DNA from: Streptomyces sp. NBC_00659
GTDB taxonomy: Bacteria > Actinomycetota > Actinomycetes > Streptomycetales > Streptomycetaceae
NCBI RefSeq assembly: GCF_036226925.1
Contig: NZ_CP109031.1
Span: 5,084,001-5,148,000, forward strand
Reading direction: 5' to 3'
Length of the DNA stretch: 64,000 nucleotides
Shown: one piece after another, positions 27,347 to 63,717 of the stretch
How positions within the stretch are numbered: position 1 is the first letter of the stretch
Layout: each line of letters starts with the position of its first letter
Notes under the pieces: model-generated
The model's input: the letters and a program-made list of their open reading frames with translations, nothing else
The model's database searches: none
Told to the model about the DNA's origin: nothing
Made by a program: the position numbers and the translations under genes

Positions 27347-28903
<1,557 letters not shown>

Positions 28904-48490: not shown

Positions 48491-48524
48491 GTCGACATCC
48501 CCGAAGGATGGGGACAAAAAGCTG

Positions 48525-48623
48525 ATGACCGCGGAGGAGTGGATCAAGATGCATCTTCGGCGTGCACCTGAGCGCGACGAAGAGTGGGTGCGCCGTGCGC
48601 TCGTCTTGCAGGGGCGTGCGTGA
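48525..48623 (+). CDS. Very small hypothetical protein before recombinase
   Basis: 32 residues from an ATG at 48525: MTAEEWIKMHLRRAPERDEE followed by WVRRALVLQGRA. The sequence is helical and charged and ends 3 bases from the convergent recombinase stop. No clear ribosome binding site. It might be an excisionase-like or remnant peptide; unassigned. Confidence 0.35.
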   Translation: MTAEEWIKMHLRRAPERDEEWVRRALVLQGRA

Positions 48624-48626
48624 TCT

Positions 48627-50060
48627 TCAGCGCCACACGGGTTCGATGAGGCTCGGGTCGAACTTCCTCTTGCCTCTGCCTGCTGGATGGATGATCACGG
48701 CTGACAGGCTGTGCAACACGATCTCTTGTTGCCGTTCAATCGGCAGATCGAAGAACTCGTCCAGCGTCAGGTTCGCGGCGTCGCCCTTGGCCTCGGATTG
48801 CTTCAGTTCCTTGTAGAACCGGGCGCGCTCCAACTTCAGCTCGTCGCGCTCTCGCTCTTTGCCGGGAAGGAGCTGCAAGAGCGTGGTCACGGTGATCTGC
48901 TTCGAACGCTCGGCGTTCACTAGCTGGATGATGTCCTCGTTGACCTGTTCCAACTCGGCATCCCGCGCCCAGCGTTGTCCAATTGGAACGGTCGTGACGG
49001 CTGCTCGGGATCGCTGCTCCTCCAGTGCGAGTTGAGCTATCAGCCTGTCCACGGGTTCCCCAACGCGTCCCACCTTGCCGCAGCCGCCATTGACGACCGA
49101 GCACCGGTAGGTGAACTTCGTTGCTTTGGATCCCGGCTCCCACCGTTGGTTGGTCTGGCCCCGGATCTTCGACTTACACAGGCCGCAGCGAGCGATGCCC
49201 GACAGCATGTACTTGCGCGCGAGGAGATGCCCAGGGTGTTTCTGCTTTCGCTCGGCGACTGCGGCGCACACCGCTTCCCACTCTTCGAGGGTGTTGATCG
49301 GCTCCCACTCACCCATGACGGGTCGGCCGTCCTCGCCGTTCAGGATGTCGCCGTGGTAGGTCCGGTATCCGACCAACCTCGGGTTCGTGAGGATGTGCTC
49401 GACGTGGTGGTGAGCCATTCGCTTGGTGCCTGCGCGGGGATTCCCCAAGCCCTGTTCCTGCCAGCGCGTACGGATCGTGCCGATGCGGACGCCGGCGAGG
49501 ATTTCGCGCTGGGCCTCCCGGATGGCTACGGCTGCCTTCGGGTCGACCTTGCTTCGGTCTTCCTTGAGCCATCCGTAGGGTGCCGGTCCGCCGCTGTCCT
49601 TGCCCTGCTGGGCCAGCTCCAGATGCTTGCGCTTGATGCGGCGCGAGGCATCAAGCGACGACTTGTTGGCGAAAGCGACCATGATGCGCGACATGGTGCG
49701 GCCGTCCGGCGTTCCGAGATTGACGTCGTTCGTGACCGTTGCGAACTCCAGCCGTGGGCGCTCATCGAAGACCTCGATCAGCCGCTCAAGGTCTCGCGGC
49801 TGCCGCGCGAGTCGGTCTAGGTCGTACGCCACGATGCCGTCGATGAGGCCGGCGCTCAGGTCGCTCAGCATCAGTTCGAACTGCTCGCGTACGACGTGGC
49901 GCTTGTAGGCCGATACGTCGTTGTCCTCGTAGACCTTCACGGCCTGCCAGGAACGGAGATCCGCGAGACGCTCGCAGTCTCGTTGCTGGCGGGCTACGCC
50001 CAACGCGTCGCCCTCGTCGTCCCGCGAGATGCGGGTGTAGATCCCTACTCGGCGTGCCAC
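48627..50060 (-). CDS. Large serine recombinase (integrase)
   Basis: 477 residues. The resolvase domain starts VGIYTRISRDDEGDALGVARQ with catalytic Ser12 and continues with IVAYDLDRLARQPRDLERLI. A recombinase domain follows (APYGWLKEDRS; HHHVEHILTNPRLVGYRTY), then a zinc-ribbon (CGLCKSK...CSVVNGGCGKV, about 300-330) and a C-terminal coiled coil. All parts are intact, so it is probably active. It starts at a GTG 60 bases from the right junction. It would have integrated the element into the phosphoribosyltransferase gene. Confidence 0.95.
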   Translation of the reverse strand: MARRVGIYTRISRDDEGDALGVARQQRDCERLADLRSWQAVKVYEDNDVSAYKRHVVREQFELMLSDLSAGLIDGIVAYDLDRLARQPRDLERLIEVFDERPRLEFATVTNDVNLGTPDGRTMSRIMVAFANKSSLDASRRIKRKHLELAQQGKDSGGPAPYGWLKEDRSKVDPKAAVAIREAQREILAGVRIGTIRTRWQEQGLGNPRAGTKRMAHHHVEHILTNPRLVGYRTYHGDILNGEDGRPVMGEWEPINTLEEWEAVCAAVAERKQKHPGHLLARKYMLSGIARCGLCKSKIRGQTNQRWEPGSKATKFTYRCSVVNGGCGKVGRVGEPVDRLIAQLALEEQRSRAAVTTVPIGQRWARDAELEQVNEDIIQLVNAERSKQITVTTLLQLLPGKERERDELKLERARFYKELKQSEAKGDAANLTLDEFFDLPIERQQEIVLHSLSAVIIHPAGRGKRKFDPSLIEPVWR

Positions 50061-51331: not shown

Positions 51332-51354
51332 TGACATCCCCTAAGGGGTTGTCA
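51332..51354. promoter_or_regulatory. 23-bp near-perfect palindrome upstream of Yip1 gene
   Basis: TGACA-T-CCCC-TAA-GGGG-T-TGTCA. The symmetrical arms suggest a dimeric repressor site or a hairpin between the Yip1 gene and the end of the tail cluster. Confidence 0.5.
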
Positions 51355-51498
51355 GGGGGCGTCAGGGTGGTCGTGCCTGTGTTGTACCCCAGGGGCGGTC
51401 GGGTGGCGGTGAGTGGAAGACACGGGCCGTGGGACGGGGGATCCGCAGGTGGGTGCGGGGTCCATGGCCCATGTCTTCCACCGGTGGGTCATCCGGAG

Positions 51499-51753
51499 TC
51501 ATCTGTGGGTGGTTTCCCACAGGGTCACAGCCAGTGCGGTGCAGGAGGTCACCGCTGCCAGGGACGGGAGTGGCCAGCGGGCGCGTTCGAGGGCGTCCAG
51601 GCGGTCCTCGTGTTCGCTGAGCATCTTGTCGGTCTGGTCGACGCGCTGGAGGAGCAGGGCGAGGTCGCCCTGGGTGGTGGCGAAGCCGACATCGACCGAG
51701 CGGCGCAGGCGTTCCAGCTCCAGGGCGACTCCTTCCGCTTCGCGTGTCGTCAC
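51499..51753 (-). CDS. Coiled-coil membrane protein ending the tail cluster
   Basis: 84 residues from a GTG overlapping the previous stop. A coiled coil (LELERLRRSVDVGFATTQGDLALLLQRVDQTDKMLSEHEDRLDALERA) precedes a C-terminal TM helix (LPSLAAVTSCTALAVTLWE). Such proteins follow holins in actinophage lysis cassettes. It may act as a second holin or regulator of lysis; function inferred from place. Confidence 0.65.
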   Translation of the reverse strand: MTTREAEGVALELERLRRSVDVGFATTQGDLALLLQRVDQTDKMLSEHEDRLDALERARWPLPSLAAVTSCTALAVTLWETTHR

Positions 51754-51956
51754 GTACGGCCCTCCTTGCGCAGCCAGGAGGGCAGGAGACGTTCCACCTC
51801 CGGCAGGGCCATGACACGGGTGAGCGCGGCGGCGATCGCCACCACACCCGCGACGGCGGGCGCGTTCCTGGCCGACGGCTCCCCGGCGAGCAGAGGGAGG
51901 AGCGCGAGCACGGTCTGCAAGGACGTCCGGAGCGTGCGGCGGGTCGAGTCGCTCAT
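51750..51956 (-). CDS. Holin-like small membrane protein
   Basis: 68 residues: TLRTSLQTVLALLPLLAG and APAVAGVVAIAAALTRVMAL form two hydrophobic segments, with a basic C-terminus (LLPSWLRKEGRT). Coupled by ATGA overlap to the amidase gene; this arrangement is typical of phage holins. Confidence 0.65.
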   Translation of the reverse strand: MSDSTRRTLRTSLQTVLALLPLLAGEPSARNAPAVAGVVAIAAALTRVMALPEVERLLPSWLRKEGRT

Positions 51957-52822
51957 CGGACGGCCTCCTCGGCCGTACGCGGCACCCGCAGCAGGTCCCA
52001 GCTCGTGCGCCCGGGGACGCCGTCGGCGGCCGGCCCGCGGTAGCCGAGTGCCAGCTGCCAGGCGGCGTACGAACGGACGTCCGCCGCACCCCAGACCGGA
52101 CCGGGGCCGACGGTGTAGCGGCCGCAGCCCTCGGTGACGAGGCGCCGGCCGATCGCCGTGATCAGTGGGCCGCGGCGGCCGGGGACGAAGTAGGCGGCGC
52201 CGGGGAAGGGTTCGTACGGCGCCGGGCCGGGGGCCGGCCGGAGGCCGAGGCGGGCGTCGATCCTGGTGCGCATGCCCGGCATCGAGAAGGACGGGTCGAT
52301 CTTGCGCCGCGTCCACTCCTTGTGGCCGATCACGCTCGCCGCGCTCCAGCCGTGGGCGCGGCACAGGGCGGTCGACAGGCGTTCGACGGCGTCGAGCTGG
52401 GCCGTCGGGTACGGGTCGCGGCCGGTGCCGAGATTCTCGATCTCGAAGCCGTAGAAGCGGGCGTTGCCGTCGACGGCGTCCGGGCCCGGGGCGGGCGGCG
52501 GGGTCTTCTCGGCGATCACGGCGGACAGTACGGCGGTGGAGCCGGAACCGGCGTGGTTGGTACGGCCGTGGCCCACCAGGTGCACGTCTCCGTCCTTGGT
52601 GATCAGGCCGGTGCAGAGCGGGCCGGGCAGGGCCGCGGTGCCGTCGAGGCAGAGGCGGAGGCTGTCCGAGCCGGCGGTGTGGTGGAGCATCACGCCGTTG
52701 ACGGGGCCCCAGGGGCCCTTGTGGTTGCGGTTGTGCGTCCGCCAGGCGCCGTGCTCGCGGACGACGACGCCCTCGGCGCGCAGAGCGCGCACGAGGGCGT
52801 CCGGGGTGAGGGGAGTGGCCAT
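51953..52822 (-). CDS. N-acetylmuramoyl-L-alanine amidase (endolysin)
   Basis: 289 residues. VNGVMLHHTAGS carries zinc His47/48, GFEIENLG the conserved Glu, and HKEWTRRKIDPS the second zinc His167 with Asp176, all of the Amidase_2/PGRP fold. The C-terminal ~80 residues (WGAADVRSYAAWQLALGYRGPAADGVPGRTSWDLL) form a peptidoglycan-binding-type domain. It cuts the peptide off MurNAc in peptidoglycan, for particle release. Followed by holin-like genes: a lysis cassette. Confidence 0.92.
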   Translation of the reverse strand: MATPLTPDALVRALRAEGVVVREHGAWRTHNRNHKGPWGPVNGVMLHHTAGSDSLRLCLDGTAALPGPLCTGLITKDGDVHLVGHGRTNHAGSGSTAVLSAVIAEKTPPPAPGPDAVDGNARFYGFEIENLGTGRDPYPTAQLDAVERLSTALCRAHGWSAASVIGHKEWTRRKIDPSFSMPGMRTRIDARLGLRPAPGPAPYEPFPGAAYFVPGRRGPLITAIGRRLVTEGCGRYTVGPGPVWGAADVRSYAAWQLALGYRGPAADGVPGRTSWDLLRVPRTAEEAVR

Positions 52823-52829
52823 GGCGTCC

Positions 52830-53471
52830 TCAGGTGACGGGGGTGACGGTCACGAACCGGTTGGTGAAGGTCGCGGTGCTGGTGGTGGCGGCCGACTTGT
52901 AGGCGAGGGTGGCGGTGTACGAGCTGTTCACCGTCAGGCCGGTCACCTGGAACTGGGTGGTGGCGGAGCACAGGTTGGTGCCGTAGGAGATCGCCGCCCG
53001 GGCGTCCGCGGCGGCGAGCGTGACGGTCGTGCTCAGGCGGATGTTCGCGGAGATGTAGGCGGCCGTCGCCGCGCTGCTGTTGATCCGGGCGCCCACCGTG
53101 ACCAGGACGGAGCCGGAGGCCGGTGCGGTGAAGGTGACCGCGGTCGGGTCGCCGGTGGAGCCGGTGAGGGTCTCCACGTACGTCGCCGAGGTGGTCGTGC
53201 CGGTGGTGGTGTTGGCCAGGTGGACCGGGCCGGGTGCGAGCTGCGCCCAGGCGCTGCCCGTGTGGTACCAGAACTGCTTGGGCGTGCTGAGCCAGACGAG
53301 CATGCCGGCCACCGGGGACGTCACCTTCGCGTCGCGGGTGGCGGCGTCGGCGAAGCGCAGCACGGTCCGGCCGTCGACGGCCTCGGCGAGGGACTGGATG
53401 TGCTGCGGGACGTTCGCCGCGTCGGCGGGCTGCGGGTAGGGGAGACTGCCGAGCGGGGTGAGCAGGGCCAT
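52830..53471 (-). CDS. Tail fibre / receptor-binding-type protein
   Basis: 213 residues beginning MALLTPLGSLPYPQPADAAN, common in actinophage tail fibre proteins, then AGMLVWLSTPKQFWYHTGSAWAQL and a C-terminal beta domain (ANTTTGTTTSATYVETLTGSTG; SVLVTVGARINSS). GGAGGAG precedes the ATG. It is the best candidate for target recognition in the cluster. Confidence 0.75.
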   Translation of the reverse strand: MALLTPLGSLPYPQPADAANVPQHIQSLAEAVDGRTVLRFADAATRDAKVTSPVAGMLVWLSTPKQFWYHTGSAWAQLAPGPVHLANTTTGTTTSATYVETLTGSTGDPTAVTFTAPASGSVLVTVGARINSSAATAAYISANIRLSTTVTLAAADARAAISYGTNLCSATTQFQVTGLTVNSSYTATLAYKSAATTSTATFTNRFVTVTPVT

Positions 53472-53507
53472 GACGGCTCCTCCTTGCGGTGTGCGGGCGG
53501 GGGGCGG

Positions 53508-53696
53508 TCAGGTGCCGAAGGGCGGCGGGAGCGTGTCGGACGGGCTGCCGCCGTCACCCGAGCGGGCGGCGGCGCTGTCCACCGGCACGGGCACGGCGAC
53601 GTCGCCGTCCTGGGCGGAGTCGTCCGGCGCGGACTCGGACGGCAGGACCACGGACGTGCCGTCGTCCTCCGCGGTCACTGCGGGCTGGTCGCTCAT
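53508..53696 (-). CDS. Small acidic tail-cluster protein
   Basis: 62 residues: MSDQPAVTAEDDGTSVVLPSE, then Asp/Ser/Pro-rich to the end. Overlaps the preceding stop by ATGA. Disordered; unknown function. Confidence 0.6.
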   Translation of the reverse strand: MSDQPAVTAEDDGTSVVLPSESAPDDSAQDGDVAVPVPVDSAAARSGDGGSPSDTLPPPFGT

Positions 53697-56071
53697 GCGG
53701 CGCCTCCTGGTGGCTGGAGCAGCTCGCGGTAGCTGAGCCTGCTCTTCGTGAGGTCGTCCAGGGTCGGGAACTGCGCGGCGACCAGGGCGTAGCTGCGCCG
53801 GGTGCCGTACTGCGGGTCCACCGGCGGGTCGGACGTGAGGCCGGAGTCGAGCGGGACGCCGTTGTAGGAGGTGCCGCGCAGGGTCAGGGTCTGCTGCGGT
53901 ACCGAGCCCGCCTGGCAGGTGGTGCGGATGCCGACGACCCAGGCCAGGGTGTCCAGGGCGGCGCCGGTGGTGTCCACCACGCGTACGACGTCGCCGAGCT
54001 GGATGCGCGGGTCGTGCAGGATGTCCACCTCGCCGAGCACCGGGACCGGGTAGCGGCCGGCGTCGAGCATGGCGTGGGAGAGGTCGGAGGCCACCTTCTG
54101 CTGCTGCACCCAGTCGGTCGCGGGCGCCTCGTAGACCTGCTTGCCGTAGTAGGACTGGCTGCCGCTGTTGTACCAGGCGTACTGACGCTGCGCCGGGTCC
54201 GCGGTCCGCTTCCGGGGCACGATCTGCACGGACGGCTTGCCGTCCTTGGTGACCGTCCACACGCTCGCCGTGCCGCGGTTGGCGAACCGGACTATGTAGT
54301 TCGGCCCGTCGCGCCGCGAACTGACCGTCACACAGCCCTTGACCGAGGTACCGCCGGTGACCGCGCTGCCGAAGCGGACCTTGTTCCCGAGCGTCGTGGC
54401 CGCGTCGTCCTCGATCTGCACGGGGCCGATGTCCAGCTCGTCCTCGGCCATGGCGTACGCCACCTCCACCACCGCGCCGGGCCTGATCTCCCGTACGGCC
54501 GTGTCGGTCGTGGTCTCGCCGTCGGTGGCACGCACGCCGGTGTAGTCCTGGTACGTCTGCTTGCAGTAGTTGCGGCAGGCGTCGATCTCCTCGGAGACGG
54601 TGAGCGCGGCGATGTCCCGCAGGGTCGTGACGGTGAGGTCCGGCTGGGCCGGGACCTTCTGGAACCGGGCCGGTCCGCGCCAGCGGAAGACGCCCTGCTC
54701 GTCGAATTCGGCCGTGGACATCGTGGCCCGGGCGATCTCGGTGATCGCCTCCCACTGGGATCCGGAGACCTTCGGCACGTCGTACAGCGGGACCGTGACC
54801 TCGTCGAGTTCGGCGGCCTTGGACCAGCGGCCCCGCTGCTCGTACTCGTCGGCGGTGTAGGAGGCGAGGTCGGGCCACGAGTTGTCGGTGACCTGGAGGC
54901 ACTCGACGGCCATGTCCGTCGTCAGTTCGATCCGGCAGAGCTCCGACGGCGGCTGGTAGGCGGCCGTGTTGTTGAAGGTGGCGGTGCCGAGCGGGAGGAA
55001 CTGCCCGTCGGGAGCGGTCAGCCGCGGGAGCACGGTCGCCGGGATGGTGGCGGACGTCGTCCCGGCGCTGGTGTCCACGGTGACGCCCACGTGCCAGGCG
55101 CCCTTGAGGGACGCCACCTTCGGCAGCGTCCACATCCAGGTCTGTCCGCTGCCGTTCAACGTGCCGGAGCTTATTCGTACGGCGCCGGCGGCGAAGTCGA
55201 CGTTCAGGCCGTAGTAGCCGTAGGCGCCCGCGCTGCGGTCGAAGACGAGCTTCAGATCCACGGTGTTGCCCACGGCACGGGCCGAGTTGGCGTACAGCTC
55301 GATCTGGAATACCTTGCCGGCCACCACGAACCGGGACCGCGGTGTCCAGGCCGCCGTCAGTCCCGGGGCGTTCGGCATCAGGGCCATCTCGTGCGGCGCG
55401 CCGTCCCGGATCCAGGAGTACGAGGTCTGGGCGGGCAGTGTCTCCGGCTGGCCGTGGGTGGGGTTGAAGCCGCCGTGCAGGGAGGCGTGCAGCACGGTGA
55501 ACGGTGCCGTGACATCCGTGGTGACCGCAGGTGCGCGGGGCGGCGGGCAGGTGTGGATGCCGCCCTGGCGCAGCAGTTCGTCCACGCACCAGGTGGCGCT
55601 CGCCACCGGCTGGGCGTACATCAGGCCGTGGTACGGCCGGGGCAGCAGGGCCGGTCCGCGCAGCCGCTCGGCGCCGTCCAGCGCCTGGACGGTCACGGTG
55701 TCCGTGCCGGAGGCCGCGGTGCGGGAGCGGACGGTGCCGCGGAAGGCGGGCAGGGTCGCGCCGGTGAGTCCGCTCTCGTGCGCGACGGACTGCCCCGGGC
55801 GTACCGCGTCGCCGGTGGCGCGCCCGGCCCACGCGGAGTAGAGCTGGGGGGCGGCCACCCCGTTCGCGCCGCCGAGCTGCATCTCCAGCTGGGCGGAGGC
55901 GCTGCCGGAGACGGCGCGCATGGCCTCGGGCAGATCGGTGCTGTAGGCCCGCTCGACCTTCCAGGACTGCACCTGGGCGCCGAGTTCCCGGCCGCCGCAG
56001 CGGGTGGTGTGCGCGGGGGTGCGGTCGGGGGCGGCGAGCGCTTCGGCCAGTGCCGGGTCAGAGCTGAGCAC
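53693..56071 (-). CDS. Tail hub / minor tail protein
   Basis: 792 residues from a GTG overlapping the distal-tail gene by 14 bp. The N-terminus (CGGRELGAQVQSWKVERAY; MRAVSGSASAQLEMQLGG), a beta-sandwich middle (ANSARAVGNTVDLKLVFDRSAGAYGYYGLNVDF, concanavalin-like) and a hub-like C-terminal part (RIQLGDVVRVVDTTG; LAWVVGIRTTCQAGSVPQQTLTLRG) fit a siphophage tail-associated hub protein. The order after the distal tail gene supports this. No protease or lysozyme motif is obvious. Confidence 0.75.
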   Translation of the reverse strand: MLSSDPALAEALAAPDRTPAHTTRCGGRELGAQVQSWKVERAYSTDLPEAMRAVSGSASAQLEMQLGGANGVAAPQLYSAWAGRATGDAVRPGQSVAHESGLTGATLPAFRGTVRSRTAASGTDTVTVQALDGAERLRGPALLPRPYHGLMYAQPVASATWCVDELLRQGGIHTCPPPRAPAVTTDVTAPFTVLHASLHGGFNPTHGQPETLPAQTSYSWIRDGAPHEMALMPNAPGLTAAWTPRSRFVVAGKVFQIELYANSARAVGNTVDLKLVFDRSAGAYGYYGLNVDFAAGAVRISSGTLNGSGQTWMWTLPKVASLKGAWHVGVTVDTSAGTTSATIPATVLPRLTAPDGQFLPLGTATFNNTAAYQPPSELCRIELTTDMAVECLQVTDNSWPDLASYTADEYEQRGRWSKAAELDEVTVPLYDVPKVSGSQWEAITEIARATMSTAEFDEQGVFRWRGPARFQKVPAQPDLTVTTLRDIAALTVSEEIDACRNYCKQTYQDYTGVRATDGETTTDTAVREIRPGAVVEVAYAMAEDELDIGPVQIEDDAATTLGNKVRFGSAVTGGTSVKGCVTVSSRRDGPNYIVRFANRGTASVWTVTKDGKPSVQIVPRKRTADPAQRQYAWYNSGSQSYYGKQVYEAPATDWVQQQKVASDLSHAMLDAGRYPVPVLGEVDILHDPRIQLGDVVRVVDTTGAALDTLAWVVGIRTTCQAGSVPQQTLTLRGTSYNGVPLDSGLTSDPPVDPQYGTRRSYALVAAQFPTLDDLTKSRLSYRELLQPPGGAA

Positions 56072-56903
56072 CGCGCACCTCCACCAGGTCGAGGCCGACG
56101 TTGCGGTAGGGCAGTGGGACGGTGGGCACGTCGGTGTAGCCGGTGACGCTCATGGCCGGGCAGCCGTCGCCGAGCGAGAACGCGATGGCCGGCTCGCCGA
56201 TGGTCAGGCACGCTCCGGCGAGCCCGTAGACGCCGGTGGCGCCCGGTCCGCCGATCGGGGTGACGAAGGCGGCGCCGGCCGGGGCGGTCCCGGTGACGCC
56301 GGTGCCGTTCGCGGACGTGGAGGCGAGGTATGAACCGTCCACGGCCTTCCAGTCGAGCTGGACGACGGCGGTCGCCGGGTTCCAGTCGGGCGGCAGCAGC
56401 CATGACACCTGCATACCGGGCATCACCGGCCACCCGGTCCAGACACCGTGCCGCCAGCCGAGGCGGCTGGCCGCGTCCTGGAAGTCGGCGACCACGGTGT
56501 CCGAGAGGGAGGGGCGGACGACGATCGTGCCCTGCACGGTGAACCAGTGGTCGGTCCCGCTGGACTGGGTGCTCTGCGCGGTCGCCTGGTACGGGTCGAG
56601 CAGGTTCACGGACGCCGGGTCGAGCAGGGCGAGCGGCCCGTACGGCGGCTGCGGCCCGCCCTGGGATCCGGGCTCGTTGATCCTGCGGGCCAGCCGGGTG
56701 AGGTGCTGGGCGTCGCCCGGGGACAGGGCGTCCCAGGACAGCTTGATACGGCGCACGGTGCGCGCCGGGGCGACGGTGGTGATGTTCCCTTCGAGGGACT
56801 TGAACTCGGTGACGTTCAGATCGGCGGTGCGGTCCCAGCTCTTCGCGGCCTGGGCGATCTCCCGCATGAATCCGGGCCGTCCGATCCACAGGTTCCTGGC
56901 CAT
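56058..56903 (-). CDS. Distal tail (Dit-like) protein
   Basis: 281 residues: MARNLWIGRPGFMREIAQAAKSWDRTADLNVTEF, TVRRIKLSWDALSPGDAQHL, then a beta-galectin-like C-terminal part (DWNPATAVVQLDWKAVDGSYLA). Placed between the tape measure and hub genes, the standard Dit position. GGAGGTGAGGGAG lies before the ATG at 56903. Confidence 0.75.
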   Translation of the reverse strand: MARNLWIGRPGFMREIAQAAKSWDRTADLNVTEFKSLEGNITTVAPARTVRRIKLSWDALSPGDAQHLTRLARRINEPGSQGGPQPPYGPLALLDPASVNLLDPYQATAQSTQSSGTDHWFTVQGTIVVRPSLSDTVVADFQDAASRLGWRHGVWTGWPVMPGMQVSWLLPPDWNPATAVVQLDWKAVDGSYLASTSANGTGVTGTAPAGAAFVTPIGGPGATGVYGLAGACLTIGEPAIAFSLGDGCPAMSVTGYTDVPTVPLPYRNVGLDLVEVRGAQL

Positions 56904-56913
56904 GGTCTCTCCC

Positions 56914-57849
56914 TCACCTCCGGGCGAGCTGGCGCTGTCCGACGAGGACGGCGCGGGCGATGACTTGCGAGTCGACCTCGACGTGCACGGGCCGTTCGGA
57001 GAGCCTCTCGACGGCGGCGGCGAGCCGGTGCATCCCGCCGCCCGAGCCGAGCACCCGCTCCAGCTTCGACAGCGGGATGACGGCCTCGGGCTCGCCGGCC
57101 TCGGCGAGCAGCGCGAGGGTGCCGCCGCGGCGGGCGGGCACGACACCGCCCTGGGCGAGGGTGGGGATGTTGGGGAGCATCGGCAGGTGGATGCCGAACT
57201 CCCGGCCGCCGAAGTGGGGCACCCAGTCGGGGATCTTGACGTGGATCCGGTTCAGGGCGCCGATCATGGCGTTGAGGCCGCCGATGTAGGCGCGGGGCAG
57301 CGCGGTGAAGGCGTTGATGATGCCCTTCAGCACCGACTTGATGGGCCCCGCGTGGTTCTTGATCGCGTTGTAGATGGCGTTCCAGGCCCACTTCACGCCC
57401 TTGGCGAGGGCGGCGGAGACCTTGTCCATGTTGATGAACTTCGAGATGAGCGGGGCGAGCAGGGCCATGATCAGCCCGAAGGCGTTCGCCTTCATGGCGG
57501 TGTTGAGGCCCTTCTGCGCGAGCGTCGCCCCCTTCAGCCCCGACCCGAACCCCTTCATGGAGGTACCGCCCGCCGTCGCTTTCTTGCCGGCGTTCCCGAC
57601 GGACTTCTCCACGGCGTCGGACTGGGCCTTGACATCGCGCAGGGCGTTCTTGGCGCCTGCGGAGGAGGTCTTGAGGTGGTCGAGGGAGGTCTTGAACTTG
57701 TCGCTGGAACCCTTGGACTTGGTCAGCGAGCTGTCGGCCTGCGCGACAGCGGTCTTGAACCCGCTGGTGGAAGTGGCGGCGCGGCCGGCGGCCGAGGCGA
57801 ACCGGCCGAAGGCACCGTCCGCGGTGCGCAGCTTCTGTATCAGGGACAT
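56914..57849 (-). CDS. Short tail tape measure protein
   Basis: 311 residues. The N-terminal ~130 are helical/coiled (GFKTAVAQADSSLTKSKGSSDKFKTSLDHL). A hydrophobic segment AFGLIMALLAPLISKFIN follows, then IKSVLKGIINAFTALPRAYIGG and the tape-measure-type tail FGIHLPMLPNIPTLAQGGVV, LALLAEAGEPEAVIPLSKL. It sets tail length; at ~1.5 angstrom per residue this predicts a tail of only about 45 nm. It is much shorter than usual siphophage tape measures (often >800 residues). GAGGAG before the ATG. Confidence 0.85.
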   Translation of the reverse strand: MSLIQKLRTADGAFGRFASAAGRAATSTSGFKTAVAQADSSLTKSKGSSDKFKTSLDHLKTSSAGAKNALRDVKAQSDAVEKSVGNAGKKATAGGTSMKGFGSGLKGATLAQKGLNTAMKANAFGLIMALLAPLISKFINMDKVSAALAKGVKWAWNAIYNAIKNHAGPIKSVLKGIINAFTALPRAYIGGLNAMIGALNRIHVKIPDWVPHFGGREFGIHLPMLPNIPTLAQGGVVPARRGGTLALLAEAGEPEAVIPLSKLERVLGSGGGMHRLAAAVERLSERPVHVEVDSQVIARAVLVGQRQLARR

Positions 57850-57908
57850 ACGGATGTCTCCTCGGTTCAGGGATCGGCGAGGTGCCGGGGTGGGCCTGCG
57901 CGGGCGGC

Positions 57909-58523
57909 TCAGATATGTGCCGCCAGTTCGTCGACACGTTTCTCCAGCGCGGTCAGGGCCTTGTTCGCCCTGGTGGCGGACTCCCCGGCCAGACGGGCGT
58001 GCTGCTTGGCGCTGGTCAGCAGGTTCTTGGCGAGTTCGCTGTTCTTATGGGCCTCGATCGCGTCGTTCTTTGCGTGGCCGGCGTCGCTCCTGGCGGCGGT
58101 GACCTGCCGTTTGAGGTCCTCCTCGAACTTCTTGGCCCGCTCGCGCTCCTGCTGTCTCGCGGTCGCGGCGGCTTTTTCCTCCGCCGCCTCTTTCTTCTTC
58201 TTCTCGTCCTTCTCCCGCTGGTCGCCCCTGCCGTAGACGGCGTTCTCGAGCGACCATTTCTTGCCGGGCCCGATGGGCCGTCCGGCGAAGGTGAGCCCTT
58301 TCTCGTCCCACTTGAACAGCGACTGGTCGAACTTGAAGAGCTGGCTGCTGAGGGTGGCGGCCTGGACGTCGGTCTTGAGGAGCGTGGTCTGGATGTCCTT
58401 GGTCCACTCGGCTTTGATCTTCGGCATTTCGGCGGCGATGACCGACAGCGCCGTCTTCGTTGCCTGCTTTGCGGCGGCGAGCAGCGCAGCGGTCTGGTCG
58501 TTGGGCTGGCTTTGGGATGACAC
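57909..58523 (-). CDS. Coiled-coil tail-cluster protein
   Basis: 204 residues from a GTG with GGAGG upstream. Highly charged and helical: REKDEKKKKEAAEEKAAATA, RQQERERAKKFEEDLKRQV; residues ~20-90 may be globular (FKWDEKGLTFAGRPIGPGKK). It sits directly before the tape measure gene and could be an accessory tape-measure or chaperone component. Not recognised as a known family. Confidence 0.65.
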   Translation of the reverse strand: MSSQSQPNDQTAALLAAAKQATKTALSVIAAEMPKIKAEWTKDIQTTLLKTDVQAATLSSQLFKFDQSLFKWDEKGLTFAGRPIGPGKKWSLENAVYGRGDQREKDEKKKKEAAEEKAAATARQQERERAKKFEEDLKRQVTAARSDAGHAKNDAIEAHKNSELAKNLLTSAKQHARLAGESATRANKALTALEKRVDELAAHI

Positions 58524-58601
58524 GTGATACCTCCGTGCGTGAGCAGGGCGCGACGAAGAACCCCTGACCGCACGGTCAGGGGTGTGAGGGGGAGGCAGTG
58601 A

Positions 58602-59036
58602 TCAGATGACGAGCAGGCTGAGCAGGCCGAGGACGATACAGATGTCGAGGACGGCGATGAGGAGCGCGATCGGTGCGACACCCACCAGTTGGCGCCGCCG
58701 GACACCGAGCGCGGGTTCCAGGCACTCGCGCAGTTCGGCTGTCGTCGGGGCGGCGGGGTCGTACACCACCGTCACGTCCGAGCCGGGCACCACGGTCGTG
58801 TGCTCCATCGGGAACGACTCCGCCTCGTGCTCGGTGCCGTCCGGAAGACGGTAGGAGAAGCGCACCAGGACCTGGTCCTGGTCCCAGGACAGTGCCGTGC
58901 AGGTTCCCGTGGTCTGCACACCGGACGCGTGCAGATGACGGGCCTGGCGATGCCGGCGGGCCGTGTGCACCACGGTGTGTCCCACGCCGGTGGACACCAC
59001 AGCCATGATGAGAGCCAGAACCAGGGCGCCACCCAT
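58602..59036 (-). CDS. DUF3592-like membrane protein inside tail cluster
   Basis: 144 residues with an N-terminal TM helix (GALVLALIMAVVSTGVGHTVV), a small beta domain (SGVQTTGTCTALSWDQDQVLVRFSYRLPDGTEHEAES; VTVVYDPAAP) and a C-terminal TM helix (IALLIAVLDICIVLGLLSLL): the DUF3592 plan. I chose the ATG at 59036 because GGGAGC precedes it; one at 59081 lacks a ribosome binding site. A non-structural passenger gene, perhaps host-protective; function unknown. Confidence 0.75.
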   Translation of the reverse strand: MGGALVLALIMAVVSTGVGHTVVHTARRHRQARHLHASGVQTTGTCTALSWDQDQVLVRFSYRLPDGTEHEAESFPMEHTTVVPGSDVTVVYDPAAPTTAELRECLEPALGVRRRQLVGVAPIALLIAVLDICIVLGLLSLLVI

Positions 59037-59127
59037 CACGTTGCTCCCGTTCGGTGTCCAACAGGTGTCCGAGTGCTTCATGGTGACGTACGTGATCGGT
59101 GCTGTCCACGGCCGCCGGTCGCGGAGG

Positions 59128-59541
59128 CTACGAGAAGAACGACCGCAGCTCCGCCAGGCCGGGCAGCCCCGGCGGATCGGGCGCCGGATCCTCCTCGGCC
59201 TCCGCTTCGGCAGGGCCGGGGCGCGGGACCGGACGGGGATACTCCAGCGGTTCGCTCTCCTCGTCGCGGTTGACCGTGGCGAACATCCAGTTGGCCTCGG
59301 CGAGTTGGTCGGCGATGAAGGCGAGCAGATGGTCGGTCACGGTCCACTCGGCGCCTTCGCCGTGCGCCTCACGGAAGAGCGCGCTGTCCCGTGGCAGATG
59401 CCGGACCAGCACCGCGAGCCGGCGTGAGGTGAGCCGGCCGCGGTGCCAGTCCAGCAGGTCGACGCCGTAGTGGCGGAGCAGGTCCGCTTCCAGGGCCTCG
59501 GCGTGCTCTTCGACGAGCTCGCCGAGGCTCAGCCTTCCCCC
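59128..59541 (-). CDS. Tail assembly chaperone, -1 frameshift extension
   Basis: This ~135-codon frame has no own start or ribosome binding site. It lies one base behind (-1) the gene at 59529, overlapping its end: GRLSLGELVEEHAEALEADLLRHYGVDLLDWHRGRLTSRRLAVLVRHLP ... LADQLAEANWMF-type ending with a Pro/Glu-rich tail. That is the pattern of the T part of lambda-like gpG-gpGT tail chaperones, produced by slippage on GGGGGAA at 59535-59541. Confidence 0.75.
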   Translation of the reverse strand, partial: GGRLSLGELVEEHAEALEADLLRHYGVDLLDWHRGRLTSRRLAVLVRHLPRDSALFREAHGEGAEWTVTDHLLAFIADQLAEANWMFATVNRDEESEPLEYPRPVPRPGPAEAEAEEDPAPDPPGLPGLAELRSFFS

Positions 59542-59819
59542 AGGCCCAGCCCCGTCTCCTTGCCGTAGGCCTCCAGGATCGCGGCGATGTCCTGCACGGT
59601 GACGTCGTGCCGCTCGAAGCGGGTGAACTGCTCCTCGCCGAGCAGCAGTCGGAGCAGTCCGTCGACGTCGTTGTCGTCGAGGTCGCGCAACTTGTGGGCG
59701 GTGGTGCGGGTGAGTTCGGTCGGCAGGGCGAAGGTGTCGCCGTCCAGTTCGAAGGTCCAGTCGCGGCCGAGCGCCTCCAGGCGCTGGGCGCGGGCCGCGT
59801 TGACGTTGAAGGTGGTCAT
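59529..59819 (-). CDS. Tail assembly chaperone, N-terminal part
   Basis: 96 residues: MTTFNVNAARAQRLEALGRDWTFELDGDTFALPTELTRTTAHKLRDLDDNDVDGLLRLLLGEEQFTRFE resembles actinophage tail assembly chaperones, which bind the tape measure during tail assembly. AAGGAG precedes the ATG. The last codons CTG GGG GAA GGC TGA contain the slippery run used to enter the -1 frame. Confidence 0.8.
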   Translation of the reverse strand: MTTFNVNAARAQRLEALGRDWTFELDGDTFALPTELTRTTAHKLRDLDDNDVDGLLRLLLGEEQFTRFERHDVTVQDIAAILEAYGKETGLGLGEG

Positions 59820-59897
59820 CTCGGGCTCCTTGTCGGTGGGTTCGGACGGTGCCCGGCGTGCGCGCGCACGCCGGGCACCACGGGGAGGTGCGGGGGA

Positions 59898-60491
59898 TCA
59901 GGCCAGCGCCGCCGGGTCGTTGACCAGCCAGGTGGCCATCGGCTTGGTCGGGTCGTCGCCCGACAGTGCGGTGAAGGTGACGCCGAGCTTGACCGCGCCG
60001 GTGCGGCTGAGCGACAGCTCCTCCACCTCGGAGACGGCGCCGTACGGGATCAGCAGCCGGTAGCGCAGGTCCTTGGTGCCGTTGTTGTCCGCGAAGTCGA
60101 TGGCGAGGGCCCGCTGGTCCTGGCCGCCCGGCATGCCGCCGATGTCGATCTTCTGCGCGGTGGTCTCCGTCTGGGAGCCCGCGGTGACGACCGAGGTCGA
60201 CGGGAGCCCCAGGTAGAACGGGAACGTGTCCTTGTTGATCTGCATCAGCTGGAACTTCAGGGTCAGGTCCCGGTCGGAGAGGACGAAGCGCGCCGGGGCC
60301 ATCGACTGCCAGGTGTCGACCGGGTCGTTCTTGTCCTTCTTGTTGAACTTGACCCCGTCGGAGGAGGTGAAGCCCAGGTTGACCCACGGGGAGGCCAGCG
60401 CGGTGGTCTCCTTGACGGTGGTGCCGGCCGGGGCCCACCAGACGTTGCCGGCGCCGGCGATGCGGATCTCGGTGTTCTTGAAGCCTGCCAT
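59898..60491 (-). CDS. Major tail tube protein
   Basis: 197 residues: MAGFKNTEIRIAGAGNVWWA, TTALASPWVNLGFTSSDGVKFN, RDLTLKFQLMQINKDTFPFYLGLPS and TGAVKLGVTFTALSGDD are typical of siphophage major tail proteins from actinobacterial phages. It is not contractile: no sheath gene accompanies it. GAGGAG lies before the ATG. Confidence 0.87.
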   Translation of the reverse strand: MAGFKNTEIRIAGAGNVWWAPAGTTVKETTALASPWVNLGFTSSDGVKFNKKDKNDPVDTWQSMAPARFVLSDRDLTLKFQLMQINKDTFPFYLGLPSTSVVTAGSQTETTAQKIDIGGMPGGQDQRALAIDFADNNGTKDLRYRLLIPYGAVSEVEELSLSRTGAVKLGVTFTALSGDDPTKPMATWLVNDPAALA

Positions 60492-60535
60492 GTGCGTGCT
60501 CCTCGGTGAGAGGGAGAGGGGAGTGGTGAAGTCGC

Positions 60536-60937
60536 CTACGCCGGGCGGATCGACAGCCGCAGGGTGGCCAGGTAGCGGTTGCCGGCCGGGCGGTTGTAGT
60601 CCGGCAGCCAGCGGGGTCCGTCCGCCTCGTCGACGTCGGTGACCAGCGCGGTGCCGTACCGGGTGCCCTGGAGTTCCAGGGCGCAGGCACGGGCCGCGTT
60701 GGCCGTCACGAGGGCGGTGGTCTTGTCCGGGCCGTACACCTCGAGGTCGACCAGCGGCCGGTCGAGGTTGAGGTCGTCGATCCAGGCGCCGCCGGCGCGG
60801 GAGACGAGGACGACCTGCTGGGTGCCGTCGAAGCCGGCGGGCGGCCTGTTGTCGACCGTGGTCCCGGCCATTTCGGTCCGGTTCTTCAGGAAGTCGACGA
60901 CGAGCCGCTCCACGTCGGGGAAGTTCAGGATCGCCAC
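60536..60937 (-). CDS. Tail completion / terminator-like protein
   Basis: 133 residues from a GTG with GAAGGGAG upstream: ILNFPDVERLVVDFLKNRTEM, QQVVLVSRAGGAWIDDLNLDRPLVDLEVYGPDKTTAL and AGNRYLATLRLSIRP. Placement just before the tail tube gene and general pattern match phage tail-terminator/completion proteins (gpU/DUF3168-like). In a capsid-less particle it would cap the tail. Confidence 0.7.
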   Translation of the reverse strand: MAILNFPDVERLVVDFLKNRTEMAGTTVDNRPPAGFDGTQQVVLVSRAGGAWIDDLNLDRPLVDLEVYGPDKTTALVTANAARACALELQGTRYGTALVTDVDEADGPRWLPDYNRPAGNRYLATLRLSIRPA

Positions 60938-61106
60938 ACGGGCGCTCCCTTCGGGAAGAGGGGTCCCGGATTCCGGGCAGCAGAAAGCGGCAGGTCCGCC
61001 GCCCGGGATCCGGGCGCAGCTCTGCCGCTGCTTCGAGTGTGACGGCGACTCCCGGATCTCGCAACTCACCTTTTTTCAGGGGGAGTTGATGGCCAGACAA
61101 ACGAAA
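60938..61106 (-). promoter_or_regulatory. Presumed tail-operon promoter region
   Basis: About 170 bases between a terminator and the first tail gene. It holds three CCCGGAT-type palindromic motifs (CCCGGATTCCGGG near 60964, CCCGGGATCCGGG near 61000, TCCCGGATCTC near 61051) and an A6 run on the minus strand near 61073. No clear -10/-35 is visible; binding by the cluster's own HTH protein is a guess. Confidence 0.4.
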
Positions 61107-61135
61107 GGGCCCCGTCGCGGCGGGCGACGGGACCC
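61107..61135 (-). terminator. Intrinsic terminator separating regulators from tail genes
   Basis: On the minus strand GGGTCCCGTCGC-loop-GCGACGGGGCCC is followed by TTTCGTTTGTCT, a textbook intrinsic terminator 41 bases after the HTH gene stop. Confidence 0.8.
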
Positions 61136-61175
61136 TGGTTCGTCGTGGGCGTGGGCCAGTGGATGCGGGCGGTGG

Positions 61176-61364
61176 TCAGCGGTTGCCGCGCAGGCGGTTC
61201 GTCGCGCGCTCGGCGGTGAACACGTCCTCCAGCCGGTACAGCTGCCGGCGGCCCTGTGCGCCGGCGGGCCGCAGGTGCCCGCGCTGCACCCACTTGCGGA
61301 TGGTGGCGGAGGTGACGCCCGCCTCGGCGGCGGCCAGCTCGGAGGTGACCATGGGGGCGTTCAC
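61176..61364 (-). CDS. MerR-type HTH DNA-binding protein
   Basis: 62 residues from a GTG overlapping the previous stop: MVTSELAAAEAGVTSATIRKWVQRGHLRPAG, then RRQLYRLEDVFTAERA. A single MerR/BldC-like winged helix without effector domain, as in excisionase-like and developmental DNA-binding proteins. It is likely a regulator of the tail genes downstream. Confidence 0.85.
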   Translation of the reverse strand: MNAPMVTSELAAAEAGVTSATIRKWVQRGHLRPAGAQGRRQLYRLEDVFTAERATNRLRGNR

Positions 61365-61870
61365 GCCGCCTCCTCGTCCGCCGGGGCGGCCACGTGCCCG
61401 CAGGGCGGGTTCACGCACCGCACCTCGGCCCGTTCCGGGAACGCCCGCAGCGACACCGAGTCGCAGGCCGGGCAGCGGCCGGGCAGGCGGACCATCTGCT
61501 CCGGGTCGCCGAGCGCACGGGCACAGCGCGCGGCCATCCGCCGGGTCTCGTCCTCGACGTGGGTGGCCAGCACCGGGTCGGGGGCGATCCGCTCCAGCAG
61601 TCCGGCGATCCGGCGCAGCCGAACCGGTACGGAGGCCGGGGGCACCGGACGCAGGCCGAGGCGTTCCCGTACGGCCTCCTCCAGTTCGACGACGCCGTCG
61701 GTGATGTCGCGCAGGGCGTCGGAGACATGCAGGCGTACGGGGGCACCGGTGCCGCCGACCGGCCCGCCGCCGCGCCGTTCCCGCAGCCCCCCGTGGGCGG
61801 CGGGTGCCAGCTCGGCGACCAGTTCGGGGAACCGGCGCAGCAGGGAGGTGATCCAGACGGCGGGGCTCAT
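61361..61870 (-). CDS. Zinc-finger protein of tail cluster
   Basis: 169 residues, overlapping whiB by ATGA. Helical N-terminal region (VWITSLLRRFPELVAELAP; DALRDITDGVVELEEAVRERLGL) and a C-terminal zinc site CPACDSVSLRAFPERAEVRC...PCGH. Similar proteins stand beside WhiB and HTH genes in actinobacterial prophages. Probably regulatory; exact function unknown. Confidence 0.7.
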   Translation of the reverse strand: MSPAVWITSLLRRFPELVAELAPAAHGGLRERRGGGPVGGTGAPVRLHVSDALRDITDGVVELEEAVRERLGLRPVPPASVPVRLRRIAGLLERIAPDPVLATHVEDETRRMAARCARALGDPEQMVRLPGRCPACDSVSLRAFPERAEVRCVNPPCGHVAAPADEEAA

Positions 61871-62088
61871 ACGGCGACCTCGCGTCCGTTGCGCCACAGC
61901 CGCCCGCCGCTGACGCCGTCGAACCATGTGTGCGAGGGGTCTACGACAGCCTCGCACTCACGTCGGATCGGGCACTGGTTGCATGCGCGCAACGTATGTT
62001 TTGCGTCGGAGGGATTACGAGTGAACACGTAGTGTTGTGGGAGATTGGCGCAGGCCGCAGCCCTGCGCCAGTCGAGTTTGCTGGTCAC
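61867..62088 (-). CDS. WhiB-family regulator
   Basis: 73 residues from a GTG with GGGGAGG upstream. Cys13, Cys36, Cys39 and Cys45 (ACANLP; ACNQCPIRREC) match the [4Fe-4S] ligands of Wbl proteins, followed by the turn GVSGGRLWRNGR in place of G(V/I)WGG. Wbl proteins bind sigma factor region 4 and control transcription; phage-encoded examples are known. It heads the minus-strand cluster. Confidence 0.9.
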   Translation of the reverse strand: MTSKLDWRRAAACANLPQHYVFTRNPSDAKHTLRACNQCPIRRECEAVVDPSHTWFDGVSGGRLWRNGREVAV

Positions 62089-62112
62089 GAGCGATACCTC
62101 CCCAGAGGATGG

Positions 62113-62126
62113 GAATATTCGTTCGA
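62113..62126. promoter_or_regulatory. LexA/SOS-like box upstream of whiB
   Basis: GAATATTCGTTCGA: on the minus strand TCGAAC-GAAT-ATTC, one perfect half-site of the actinobacterial SOS box TCGAAC-N4-GTTCGA and one half with changes. It lies 25 bases before the whiB start and is followed on the plus strand by TATATG. Confidence 0.5.
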
Positions 62127-62238
62127 TATATGCGGGCAGCAGTCAGCGTGGCACCGTGCGAGCGCGAGCGCAAGCGACTTGCGGGGGTGGCGAGGGCGCC
62201 AGGGGTGGTGGCTTGAACGCGACCAGCGGTGCAGCGTG

Positions 62239-62251
62239 CGAACGTATGTTC
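62239..62251. promoter_or_regulatory. LexA/SOS-like box between whiB and XRE gene
   Basis: CGAAC-GTAT-GTTC fits CGAAC-N4-GTTCG with only the last base changed (T). It is followed by TATATATGG, similar to the context of the box at 62113. The same core AACGTATGTT recurs inside whiB at about 61990. Confidence 0.65.
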
Positions 62252-62377
62252 TATATATGGTGGCCGGACTGTCCGTGGCGAGGTGAAGAAAAATGTGTTC
62301 CCTTACGCGCGTGCGCGCGCACTCCAGGTGCGTGCGCGATCGGTACGCTGCTCCCGACACGAGGGGAGATCGGGAAC

Positions 62378-62830
62378 ATGGGGCCCAGTCCACGCGCCGC
62401 GAGCACGGAACGAACAGAACGAACGGAACGAACCGACGCGTTGGAGGAGTTCGCCGTCTGGGTCGAGGACCTGATGCGGGACCGCGGCTATGTGATCGAC
62501 GGCCCACGCGGCGGTGGCAAGTCGCGGCTGGCCGACGACTCCGGTGTCCACCGGGCCGCGGTGACTCGGCTGCTGCAGCGGCAGAGCATGCCGGACCTCG
62601 AGACCATGCGCCGCCTGGCCGTGGTGCTCGGCGTGCCGCTGCGGGACATGCTGATCCGCTCCGGGCGGCTGTCCGAGGACGATCTGCCGCTCGAACCCGG
62701 CCCGGGAGCGGACCCGGGAGCGAGCAGGCGGCTGAGCCCGGAGGAGGCGGCGCGGCGCATGGGCGTACCGGAGGACCTGCGTGGTCTGTTCGTGAAGGTC
62801 GCCCGGCAGTTTCTGGGGGAGGGGTCTTAG
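62378..62830 (+). CDS. XRE-family HTH regulator divergent from whiB
   Basis: 150 residues with GAGGGGAG before the ATG. After a TERTERTERTD tail, residues ~25-90 are an XRE-like HTH (SRLADDSGVHRAAVTRLLQRQSMPDLETMRRLAVVLGVPLRDML). The C-terminus has PEEAARRMGVPEDLRGLFVKVA. It faces the whiB-tail cluster across a ~290-base promoter region and is a natural repressor candidate, though similar genes occur as ordinary chromosomal regulators. Confidence 0.82.
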   Translation: MGPSPRAASTERTERTERTDALEEFAVWVEDLMRDRGYVIDGPRGGGKSRLADDSGVHRAAVTRLLQRQSMPDLETMRRLAVVLGVPLRDMLIRSGRLSEDDLPLEPGPGADPGASRRLSPEEAARRMGVPEDLRGLFVKVARQFLGEGS

Positions 62831-62877
62831 GGAAAGAGACGCGGGACGGGGGAGCCGGGAGTGCAAGGAGTGCACAC

Positions 62878-63384
62878 ATGGGTGACGGGGGACGCCGGGA
62901 CGATGACAAGGACGGTACCGGTGGTGAAGGGTCGTACACCGAGGCGGAGCGGGTTACCCGGCTGCTGGGCGGTCTGCTGATCGCACTGGGTGAGAAGGTC
63001 CAGGAGGCGGGACCGGAAGGGGTCCGCATCCTCAGCGACGAGGAGGTGCAGCGGGCCAACCTCCAGTGGTACCGCACGGGTTGGGAGGAGCACGCACGGG
63101 CGGTCCGCCCGTCCGGCGAGCTCGAGTCGCCGGGGCATGTGGCGGCCGCTCCGGCTGATCCGGCCACCCCGGCGGAGCATCCGGCGGATCCCGACCCCCT
63201 GTCCGCCATGGGCCGGCTGCTCGACTTCCCCGGCCACGGCGCCCCGGCCGTCGGCCAGGGCGCCGAGCGCGCCCGGGCGGAGCTGCGGCACCGGCACGAC
63301 GAGCCCGGCGCCGGACGGCACGAGCGCGTCCGGGAACGCGGTGAGGGCGCCGATGCGGTACGGCGGCCCGACGGTGACGGATGA
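62878..63384 (+). CDS. Hypothetical protein downstream of XRE regulator
   Basis: 168 residues with AAGGAG before the ATG at 62878. Residues 20-75 look folded (YTEAERVTRLLGGLLIALGEKVQEAGPEGVRILSDEEVQRANLQWYRTGWEEHARA); the rest is Pro/Ala/His/Arg-rich and disordered. Probably co-transcribed with the XRE gene (47-base gap). Function unknown. Confidence 0.65.
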   Translation: MGDGGRRDDDKDGTGGEGSYTEAERVTRLLGGLLIALGEKVQEAGPEGVRILSDEEVQRANLQWYRTGWEEHARAVRPSGELESPGHVAAAPADPATPAEHPADPDPLSAMGRLLDFPGHGAPAVGQGAERARAELRHRHDEPGAGRHERVRERGEGADAVRRPDGDG

Positions 63385-63610
63385 GGGAGCAGGAAGAAGC
63401 CGTCGACGCAGTCGAGATCGGCCTCGTCCACACGCGCTGGCGTGACAAGGAGTCCTTCCGGGCGTGGACGGAAGGGCCGATGAAGTCCGTGCACCAGGGC
63501 GGCGGCGAGGGGAGAGAGCGGCCTGAGCCCGGGTCTCCGGCCCGATCCTGTGGTGCTTCGAGGTGGTGCAGCAGGCGGGCCGCCCGAAGGGCGAGGCGCA
63601 GGGAATGTCC
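63381..63610 (+). pseudogene. Remnant of an antibiotic-biosynthesis-monooxygenase-like gene
   Basis: IGLVHTRWRDKESFRAWTEGPMKSVHQ is like the second half of ABM/HmoA-type dimeric alpha-beta barrels. The expected ending SxLWxFEVVQ (here ILWCFEVVQQAG) appears in another frame about 50 codons later, and the N-terminal half is absent. So this is a truncated, frameshifted remnant. Confidence 0.45.
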
Positions 63611-63660
63611 TCCTGCGCGAGCTGTGCGAGCGCGCCACCGGCGTCCGGGGCAGGCCCCGC

Positions 63661-63703
63661 ACGACCGACGCCCCGCACCGGACAGGTGCGGGGCGTCGGT
63701 CGT
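63661..63703. terminator. Terminator with perfect 19-bp stem
   Basis: ACGACCGACGCCCCGCACC and its exact complement with a 5-base loop, 14 bases past the stop of the Fe-S protein gene. Very stable; serves both directions. Confidence 0.8.
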
Positions 63704-63717
63704 ACCGAACGGGGCGG

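Follow-up and report, generated by a model that had tools for sequence, protein, structure and literature searches.

Tailocins have been well studied in Pseudomonas and Listeria. The F-type pyocins of Pseudomonas are flexible, non-contractile, head-less tails of a Gram-negative host, encoded by lambda-like genes. These pyocins are mentioned in the available part of PMC8910223, and the closest described system to the one reported here, the Listeria monocins, is portrayed in the available part of PMC6872733 as head-less, SOS-induced, equipped with lysis genes and vertically inherited. Here we analyze a cluster of tail genes in Streptomyces sp. NBC_00659 (NZ_CP109031.1), located on the minus strand at positions 51499-62088, between a Yip1 and an iron-sulfur (Fe-S) chromosomal gene, of a 64,000-nt stretch (5,084,001-5,148,000) that we call the window and whose numbering we use throughout. 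In the labels below, L-numbers denote loci or stretches compared and G-numbers genomes, G000 being the genome of the window. We consider it likely that this locus encodes a domesticated, capsid-less siphophage tail that is maintained and SOS-inducible, that is, a non-contractile (F-type-like) tailocin. Because the head-less gene order is shared among relatives, the ratios of non-synonymous to synonymous substitution (dN/dS) are below 1 and the locus appears to be under SOS control, we favor a maintained tailocin-type element over a prophage remnant, in agreement with an earlier note on this DNA that had proposed a candidate F-type tailocin.

The cluster contains a complete set of genes for a non-contractile tail, all of them open minus-strand frames, mostly with GC-rich third codon positions and Shine-Dalgarno-like starts. 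A tail terminator/completion protein (60536-60937; phrog_123, 1e-19) and a tail tube (59898-60491; PF25681 Phage_TTP_17, 3e-45; phrog_117) are followed by a tail assembly chaperone, whose G part of 96 amino acids (59529-59819; phrog_10551, 1e-26) would be extended into the T part (59128-59532) if, as presumed, ribosomes shift by -1 at GGG GAA. Further along are a short tape measure of 311 amino acids (56914-57849; phrog_3981, 3e-14), a Dit-like distal tail protein (56058-56903), a Tal/gp27-like baseplate hub (53693-56071), a small acidic protein of 62 amino acids that has relatives elsewhere (53508-53696), and a fibre or minor tail protein (52830-53471; phrog_16452, 2e-12; phrog_7565, 9e-8). 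Neither Dit nor hub matched a sequence family. The fold of the hub is of gp27/Tal type, interrupted by a lectin-like domain (residues ~180-420), and the AlphaFold model of Dit (predicted local distance difference test score, 90.5) gave Foldseek/VIA matches of modest score to Dit-like proteins. The latter protein, predicted to carry an inserted carbohydrate-binding-module-like domain (residues ~98-237), is less surely assigned than the hub. The families of sheath, gp25, and baseplate J were absent among the cluster proteins scanned, which speaks against a contractile injection system (CIS) or an R-type tailocin at this locus.

The tail genes are accompanied by a lysis cassette of their own, comprising an endolysin of the amidase type, identified by profile (51953-52822; PF01510, 3e-19; phrog_880, 4e-59), a membrane protein that is holin-like by position and hydropathy (51750-51956; phrog_4316, 2e-14, with no function given there), and a last gene (51499-51753; phrog_5225, 9e-25) that adjoins the amidase in 19 of 23 loci, the window included. 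At the head of the cluster are a WhiB-like regulator (61867-62088; PF02467, 2.5e-6), a zinc-finger-like regulator that overlaps it by 4 nt (61361-61870; phrog_1467 without given function, 6e-13; cysteine pattern judged by eye), and a small DNA-binding protein of MerR/HTH_17 type (61176-61364; PF12728, 3e-6). The earlier note had named this tail, lysis, and regulatory gene set correctly. It had missed a divergent plus-strand repressor of XRE type (62378-62830; HTH_3, 1e-8; phrog_3949 transcriptional repressor, 3e-15) and perhaps also the adjoining plus-strand open reading frame of 168 amino acids (62878-63384), which occurs, poorly conserved, in some relatives and has no Pfam match. It had also left out two genes between chaperone and tape measure: a DUF3592-like protein with two transmembrane (TM) stretches by hydropathy in a variable slot (58602-59081; PF12158, 1e-4, below the Pfam cut-off), and, directly upstream of the tape measure at a place that is polymorphic in relatives, a protein that looks coiled-coil-like by eye (57909-58523). 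A second, solitary amidase gene with 72% DNA identity to that of the cluster is found elsewhere in the genome (L002; G000:C1:6305517-6309006).

We searched for portal (PF04860), capsid (PF05065), and terminase ATPase (PF03354) in 25 genomes carrying the tube, a set outside which the L041 and L042 genomes stand, with the search confined to these three head families. None of them was found at the tail locus in any of the 25 genomes. The linked head genes in relatives that the earlier note had named as grounds for abandoning its reading were therefore not encountered. Elsewhere in these genomes there were portal matches in 6, capsid matches in 7, and terminase ATPase matches in 3, leaving 19, 18, and 22 genomes, respectively, with no match anywhere; the genome of the window itself had no match to any of the three. 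The nearest head-family match on the same contig as a cassette was ~0.54 Mb away (G108), and in G041, G081, and G119 there were matches on contigs other than that of the cassette. As a positive control, contig C155 of G041, a true prophage, carries capsid and terminase beside its own tube (37% identity). In most loci, regulators occupy the region upstream of the terminator, which in phages harbors the head genes; for other flanking genes, labels were given by similarity to the query set alone, and many were not profiled. A gene transfer agent does not fit the absence of capsid, portal, and terminase, as covered by the three families, from the whole genome of NBC_00659.

Two empty sites with adjacent Yip1 and Fe-S genes (L127 and L128) are similar to the window up to 51348 and again from 63716 on, so that a block of ~12.4 kb (51349-63715) sits between these two chromosomal genes. 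Ten Yip1 stretches were compared, from genomes in which Yip1 had been located. Two of them (G107 and G013) are clean empty sites, with Yip1-FeS gaps of 311 and 260 bp that contain nothing of the tail cluster; in three more (G173, G218, and G005), one to six other called genes separate the two; and in five no Fe-S gene is seen, one of these stretches (G021) being only 3.9 kb long. A repeat search of 51338-63717 found no bracketing exact repeat among the repeat families listed. No integrase or replication gene was assigned to the tail element. The earlier note's remark that no integrase is present holds within the cluster, but a serine recombinase (48627-50060) lies 1.4 kb outside its border, beyond Yip1. 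Because a C-terminal RepSA fragment (47897-48490; 5e-46) lies beside this recombinase, and because no match to it was found in L060 of the close relative S. rhizosphaerihabitans, we read it as belonging to a separate element; together with a nearby GNAT gene, 47067-50060 looks like the remnant of a pSAM2-like or plasmid-like integrative element. S. rhizosphaerihabitans (L039/L060) has pRT and Yip1 grouped with the tail cluster. Among the nearest relatives with a cluster at the same site, none showed a recognized integrase in its gene list, the unlabelled genes there not having been profiled.

The family is widespread in Streptomyces. Of 150 Streptomyces genomes, 25, counting that of the window, have a tube of at least 40% identity over near full length; a threshold of E <= 1e-3 gives 44, many of them remote. 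The 96-residue chaperone part was matched in 59 of 295 Streptomyces genomes, 57 of which reach 55% identity or more (one with a partial match). Among 296 genomes of the class, representing 114 genera, this part was matched in four, all Streptomyces and one at only 34%. Protein searches also returned the names Embleya, Yinghuangia, Wenjunlia, Actinacidiphila, Actinophytocola, and Amycolatopsis. Among 50,697 phage records the chaperone part matched only phage Rowa (two records, 33%) and the hub matched none, and the closest phage tube, of phage Kromp, has 33% identity. A pattern-based scan of IMG/VR yielded one confirmed locus, L086, an 11.3-kb cassette listed as a viral contig, with the same gene order and, as read from its translations, no recognizable head gene. 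When 23 distinct loci were laid out (the window, L039-L059, and L061; for 17, a further 20 kb to one side was included), the cassette gene order was the same across relatives, as expected from the conserved head-less synteny that the earlier note had suggested looking for. Terminator (48-100% identity), tube (40-97%), and chaperone were present in 22 of 22 relatives.

Several features argue that these genes are maintained. The slip region GGG GAA G[G/A]C TGA GCC TCG is common to 25 of 25 loci, preceded by the codon CTG in 24 and by GTG in L043; the first chaperone part always has 96 residues, and the -1 frame is open for 127-155. By the Nei-Gojobori method, with eight relatives, dN/dS was below 1 in every tail-gene comparison made, and the alignments used contained no stop. 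With L039, the closest relative, tail and lysis genes gave ratios of 0-0.62, the 62-residue protein gave 0.83, and the last gene was identical, its ratio being undefined; against L040, the baseplate genes gave 0.76-0.80. The frames of the window's copy are intact, in line with the many intact frames of the earlier note, and the widespread frameshifts in orthologues that it had considered damaging did not appear: among 351 query-locus pairs, only the hubs of L041 and L044 (the L077 locus) are split between frames. Four best alignments contain a stop symbol; two are cross-type tape-measure matches, and for the other two (amidase of L071, terminator of L056) full-length frames exist.

Control by the SOS response is suggested by a perfect SOS/LexA-type box, GAACGTATGTTC (62240-62251), between the divergent regulators. 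A GAACN4GTTC box lies between repressor and WhiB/zinc-finger genes in 8 of 10 loci of the window's type (the window, L039, L040, L041, L042, L046, L048, and L061, not L044 or L045), its four central bases varying and its arms constant, and no second such motif occurs in the 17-20.6 kb compared for each of the seven relatives; the eight loci share descent and are not eight independent events. In its available part, PMC9380542 gives the LexA motif of Streptomyces venezuelae as tCGAAC-N4-GNNCGa, and the lexA promoter of NBC_00659 carries TCGAACGTGTGTTT, identical to the validated S. venezuelae lexA-2 site given there. According to the same source, the LexA targets of S. venezuelae that mitomycin C induces most highly include vnz_21525, a "phage tail fiber protein" (526-fold), and vnz_21545/vnz_21550 (190-fold), described as "a predicted prophage cluster", with LexA chromatin immunoprecipitation signal for this cluster. 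Among the loci compared, the two published 14-mers of these sites occur only in L058, the cassette of G015 beside rpoC, one before the Dit gene and the other between c21 and c15. G015 also contains a single copy of another published 14-mer (vnz_00275), at 60.9 kb. Because three published motifs match exactly, we take G015 to be S. venezuelae or a very close strain.

Cassettes occupy several chromosomal sites. They end beside rpoC in nine genomes (G003, G004, G015, G025, G066, G068, G076, G079, and G125), with the rpsL-rpsG-fusA side also seen in eight (not G079) and one to three extra edge genes in G025, G066, G068, and G125. No cassette is present in ten rpoC|rpsL stretches of further genomes; two of these (G005 and G218; L145 and L146) have no gene called between rpoC and rpsL, and the remaining eight, this strain's included, have other genes there. 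The Yip1/FeS site is occupied in G000 and G024, in G101 with extra genes, and in G033 with Yip1 on one side only; further cassettes lie near holB/topA (G023) and before dnaE2 (G011 and G140). For eight rpoC-slot loci, distances of terminator, tube, and chaperone (Mantel r 0.52, p 0.008), Dit (r 0.45, p 0.018), regulators (r 0.55, p 0.004), and amidase (r 0.75, p 0.0002) correlate with RpoBC distances, and those of the hub, one copy of which is cut by a locus edge, do not significantly (r 0.27, p 0.12). Because four of five gene sets track RpoBC and the hub does not, the pattern fits mainly vertical descent at a fixed site with baseplate exchange. Module exchange is also seen in L040 (tube 91%, Dit, hub, and fibre 48-58%) and L046 (tube 47%, Dit and hub 69-75%). 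Seven rpoC-slot cassettes (L058, L053, L056, L052, L054, L057, and L051) and that of G023 (L050) carry two adjacent tape-measure-like genes of ~360-430 amino acids each, and three (L053, L056, and L058) have an opposite-strand gene of 274-277 amino acids between the helix-turn-helix (HTH) gene and the terminator. L047 and L049 are minimal clusters, from terminator to hub, directly before dnaE2.

A tailocin of this kind might work as follows. During growth, the XRE repressor and LexA would keep the promoter region at 62089-62377 shut; DNA damage would relieve LexA repression, leading to expression of the WhiB, zinc-finger, and HTH regulators and then of one long operon. The tube would polymerize on the hub-Dit baseplate around the very short tape measure, helped by the frameshifted chaperones, and would be capped by the terminator; because no head exists, the product would remain a short tail. 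Tape measures usually correspond to 0.15 nm of tail per residue, which would give a length of ~45-50 nm. Amidase and holin would then lyse some hyphae and free the tails, which could bind cell-wall sugars of other actinomycetes via the carbohydrate-binding domains of Dit and hub and de-energize or perforate these cells. Assembly, release, and killing, and with them the assignment as a tailocin, are what we infer from the genes. The gene preceding the tape measure differs among loci and encodes a TM stretch in six of them. Six loci, among them the window, also have a small two-TM protein called next to this gene, in five cases (L039, L040, L042, L054, and L057) on the opposite strand. The gene before the tape measure may belong to a split tape measure or may encode a cargo effector accompanied by an immunity protein. 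A bolder version, to which we give a rather small chance, is that SOS-fired non-contractile tails across the genus carry a polymorphic effector in their lumen, encoded before the tape measure and paired in several loci with a two-TM immunity partner, and inject protein instead of DNA.

Several observations weigh against a maintained, SOS-fired tailocin. WhiB is found in only 14 of 22 relatives (15 of 23 loci) and the amidase in 18 of 22, and no lysis genes or regulators were recognized in L047 and L049, though a released weapon needs them. In places dN/dS is high, at ~0.6 for hub and tape measure in the closest pair, 0.87-0.93 when the tube is compared with those of L046 and L045, and 0.96 when the tape measure is compared with that of L048. 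The frameshifted hubs are 2 of 10 of the window's hub type, the hub does not track RpoBC, and L059 (G012) is truncated to terminator, tube, chaperone, and two small family genes, without tape measure, baseplate, or lysis genes. The window has one further GAACN4GTTC, at 26080 (0.45 expected per 64 kb), and the other 15 loci have seven such boxes in six of them (L044, L049, L050, L053 twice, L058, and L059). The available part of PMC9380542 does not mark the S. venezuelae cluster boxes as ones validated in vitro; their distances to the start codons called here (184, 200, and 118) differ by 5-18 bases from the published 174, 182, and 123, perhaps owing to other start calls; and mitomycin induction is known only from a relative with 42-44% tube identity at another site.

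Three other explanations were considered. Instead of being released, the tails could form a cell-bound or cytoplasmic device acting on the producer, in regulated death or developmental lysis, much as CIS of Streptomyces have been reported, in the part of that literature available, as cytoplasmic and linked to cell death. The WhiB-type regulator and the clusters devoid of lysis genes would suit such a role, and an SOS-fired lysis cassette kills the producer anyway, but an amidase accompanies 19 of 23 loci and the carbohydrate-binding-like modules of Dit and hub point outward, and we regard this as unlikely. A somewhat slimmer chance goes to a decaying prophage that has lost head, replication, and integration genes and kept tail and lysis genes by chance. 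The genes are clearly siphophage-derived, the lysin having 52% identity to that of phage Chymera, and decay is seen in L059 and in the two split hubs; beyond these exceptions the comparisons made showed neither decay nor, among the families searched and the genes labelled, head or integration genes. Against chance retention stand a head-less state common to loci at several sites with tubes down to ~40% identity, the single slip site, dN/dS below 1, regulators shared by most loci where a head module would lie, the low identity of the closest phage tube, and the absence of a phage match to the hub. A role as helper, with tails provided in trans for the capsids of a resident phage or a satellite, is highly improbable, since most carriers have no match to the head families, which do not cover every head type, even though the capsid-facing terminator and tube are kept in every relative.

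If the tailocin reading is true, about 1 in 5 Streptomyces species (57 of 295, by chaperone) would carry a second, unrecognized tail-based device, at least partly under DNA-damage control, and this would account for one of the most pronounced SOS responses in the model S. venezuelae. The particles would probably act on rival bacteria; narrow-spectrum anti-actinomycete particles would become open to study, and the role of an SOS-fired lysis operon in a multicellular bacterium would be directly testable. Our searches of open-licence literature listed no description of non-contractile tailocins in Streptomyces, only contractile devices, and the main text of PMC9380542 as available nowhere uses the terms tailocin, bacteriocin, tail-like, headless, or capsid. 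A CIS also lies in the window, at 20959-41090, ~10 kb from the cluster, with AAA ATPase (21810-23810), sheath (27347-28903), gp19-like tube (28964-29404), VgrG-like protein (34314-36137), gp25 (36628-37050), and baseplate J (37050-39023).

The Streptomyces CIS (SLP) are likewise phage-tail-derived devices in this genus, but they are contractile, with sheath, gp25, and baseplate J, whereas the cluster has a siphovirus-type tube. The vnz_21525-21550 cluster of S. venezuelae belongs to the same regulator-terminator-tube-chaperone-amidase-holin family, with no head genes recognized, and differs in its hub and Dit, its two tape-measure-like genes, and its rpoC|rpsL slot. F-type pyocins, likened here by description, share the flexible non-contractile tail without a head and differ in their Gram-negative host, lambda-like genes, and regulation. 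Listeria monocins, as far as the available part of their description goes and likened by it rather than by sequence, share most: a head-less non-contractile tail, holin-endolysin genes, a regulatory module with repressor, no excision genes, retention across a genus, and SOS induction, which is predicted for the locus described here. Their MpaR metalloprotease has no recognized counterpart here, and their killing is proven. In turn, the Streptomyces family is set apart from monocins by its WhiB, zinc-finger, and HTH regulators, a very short tape measure with a polymorphic gene before it, carbohydrate-binding-like inserts, and several chromosomal sites.

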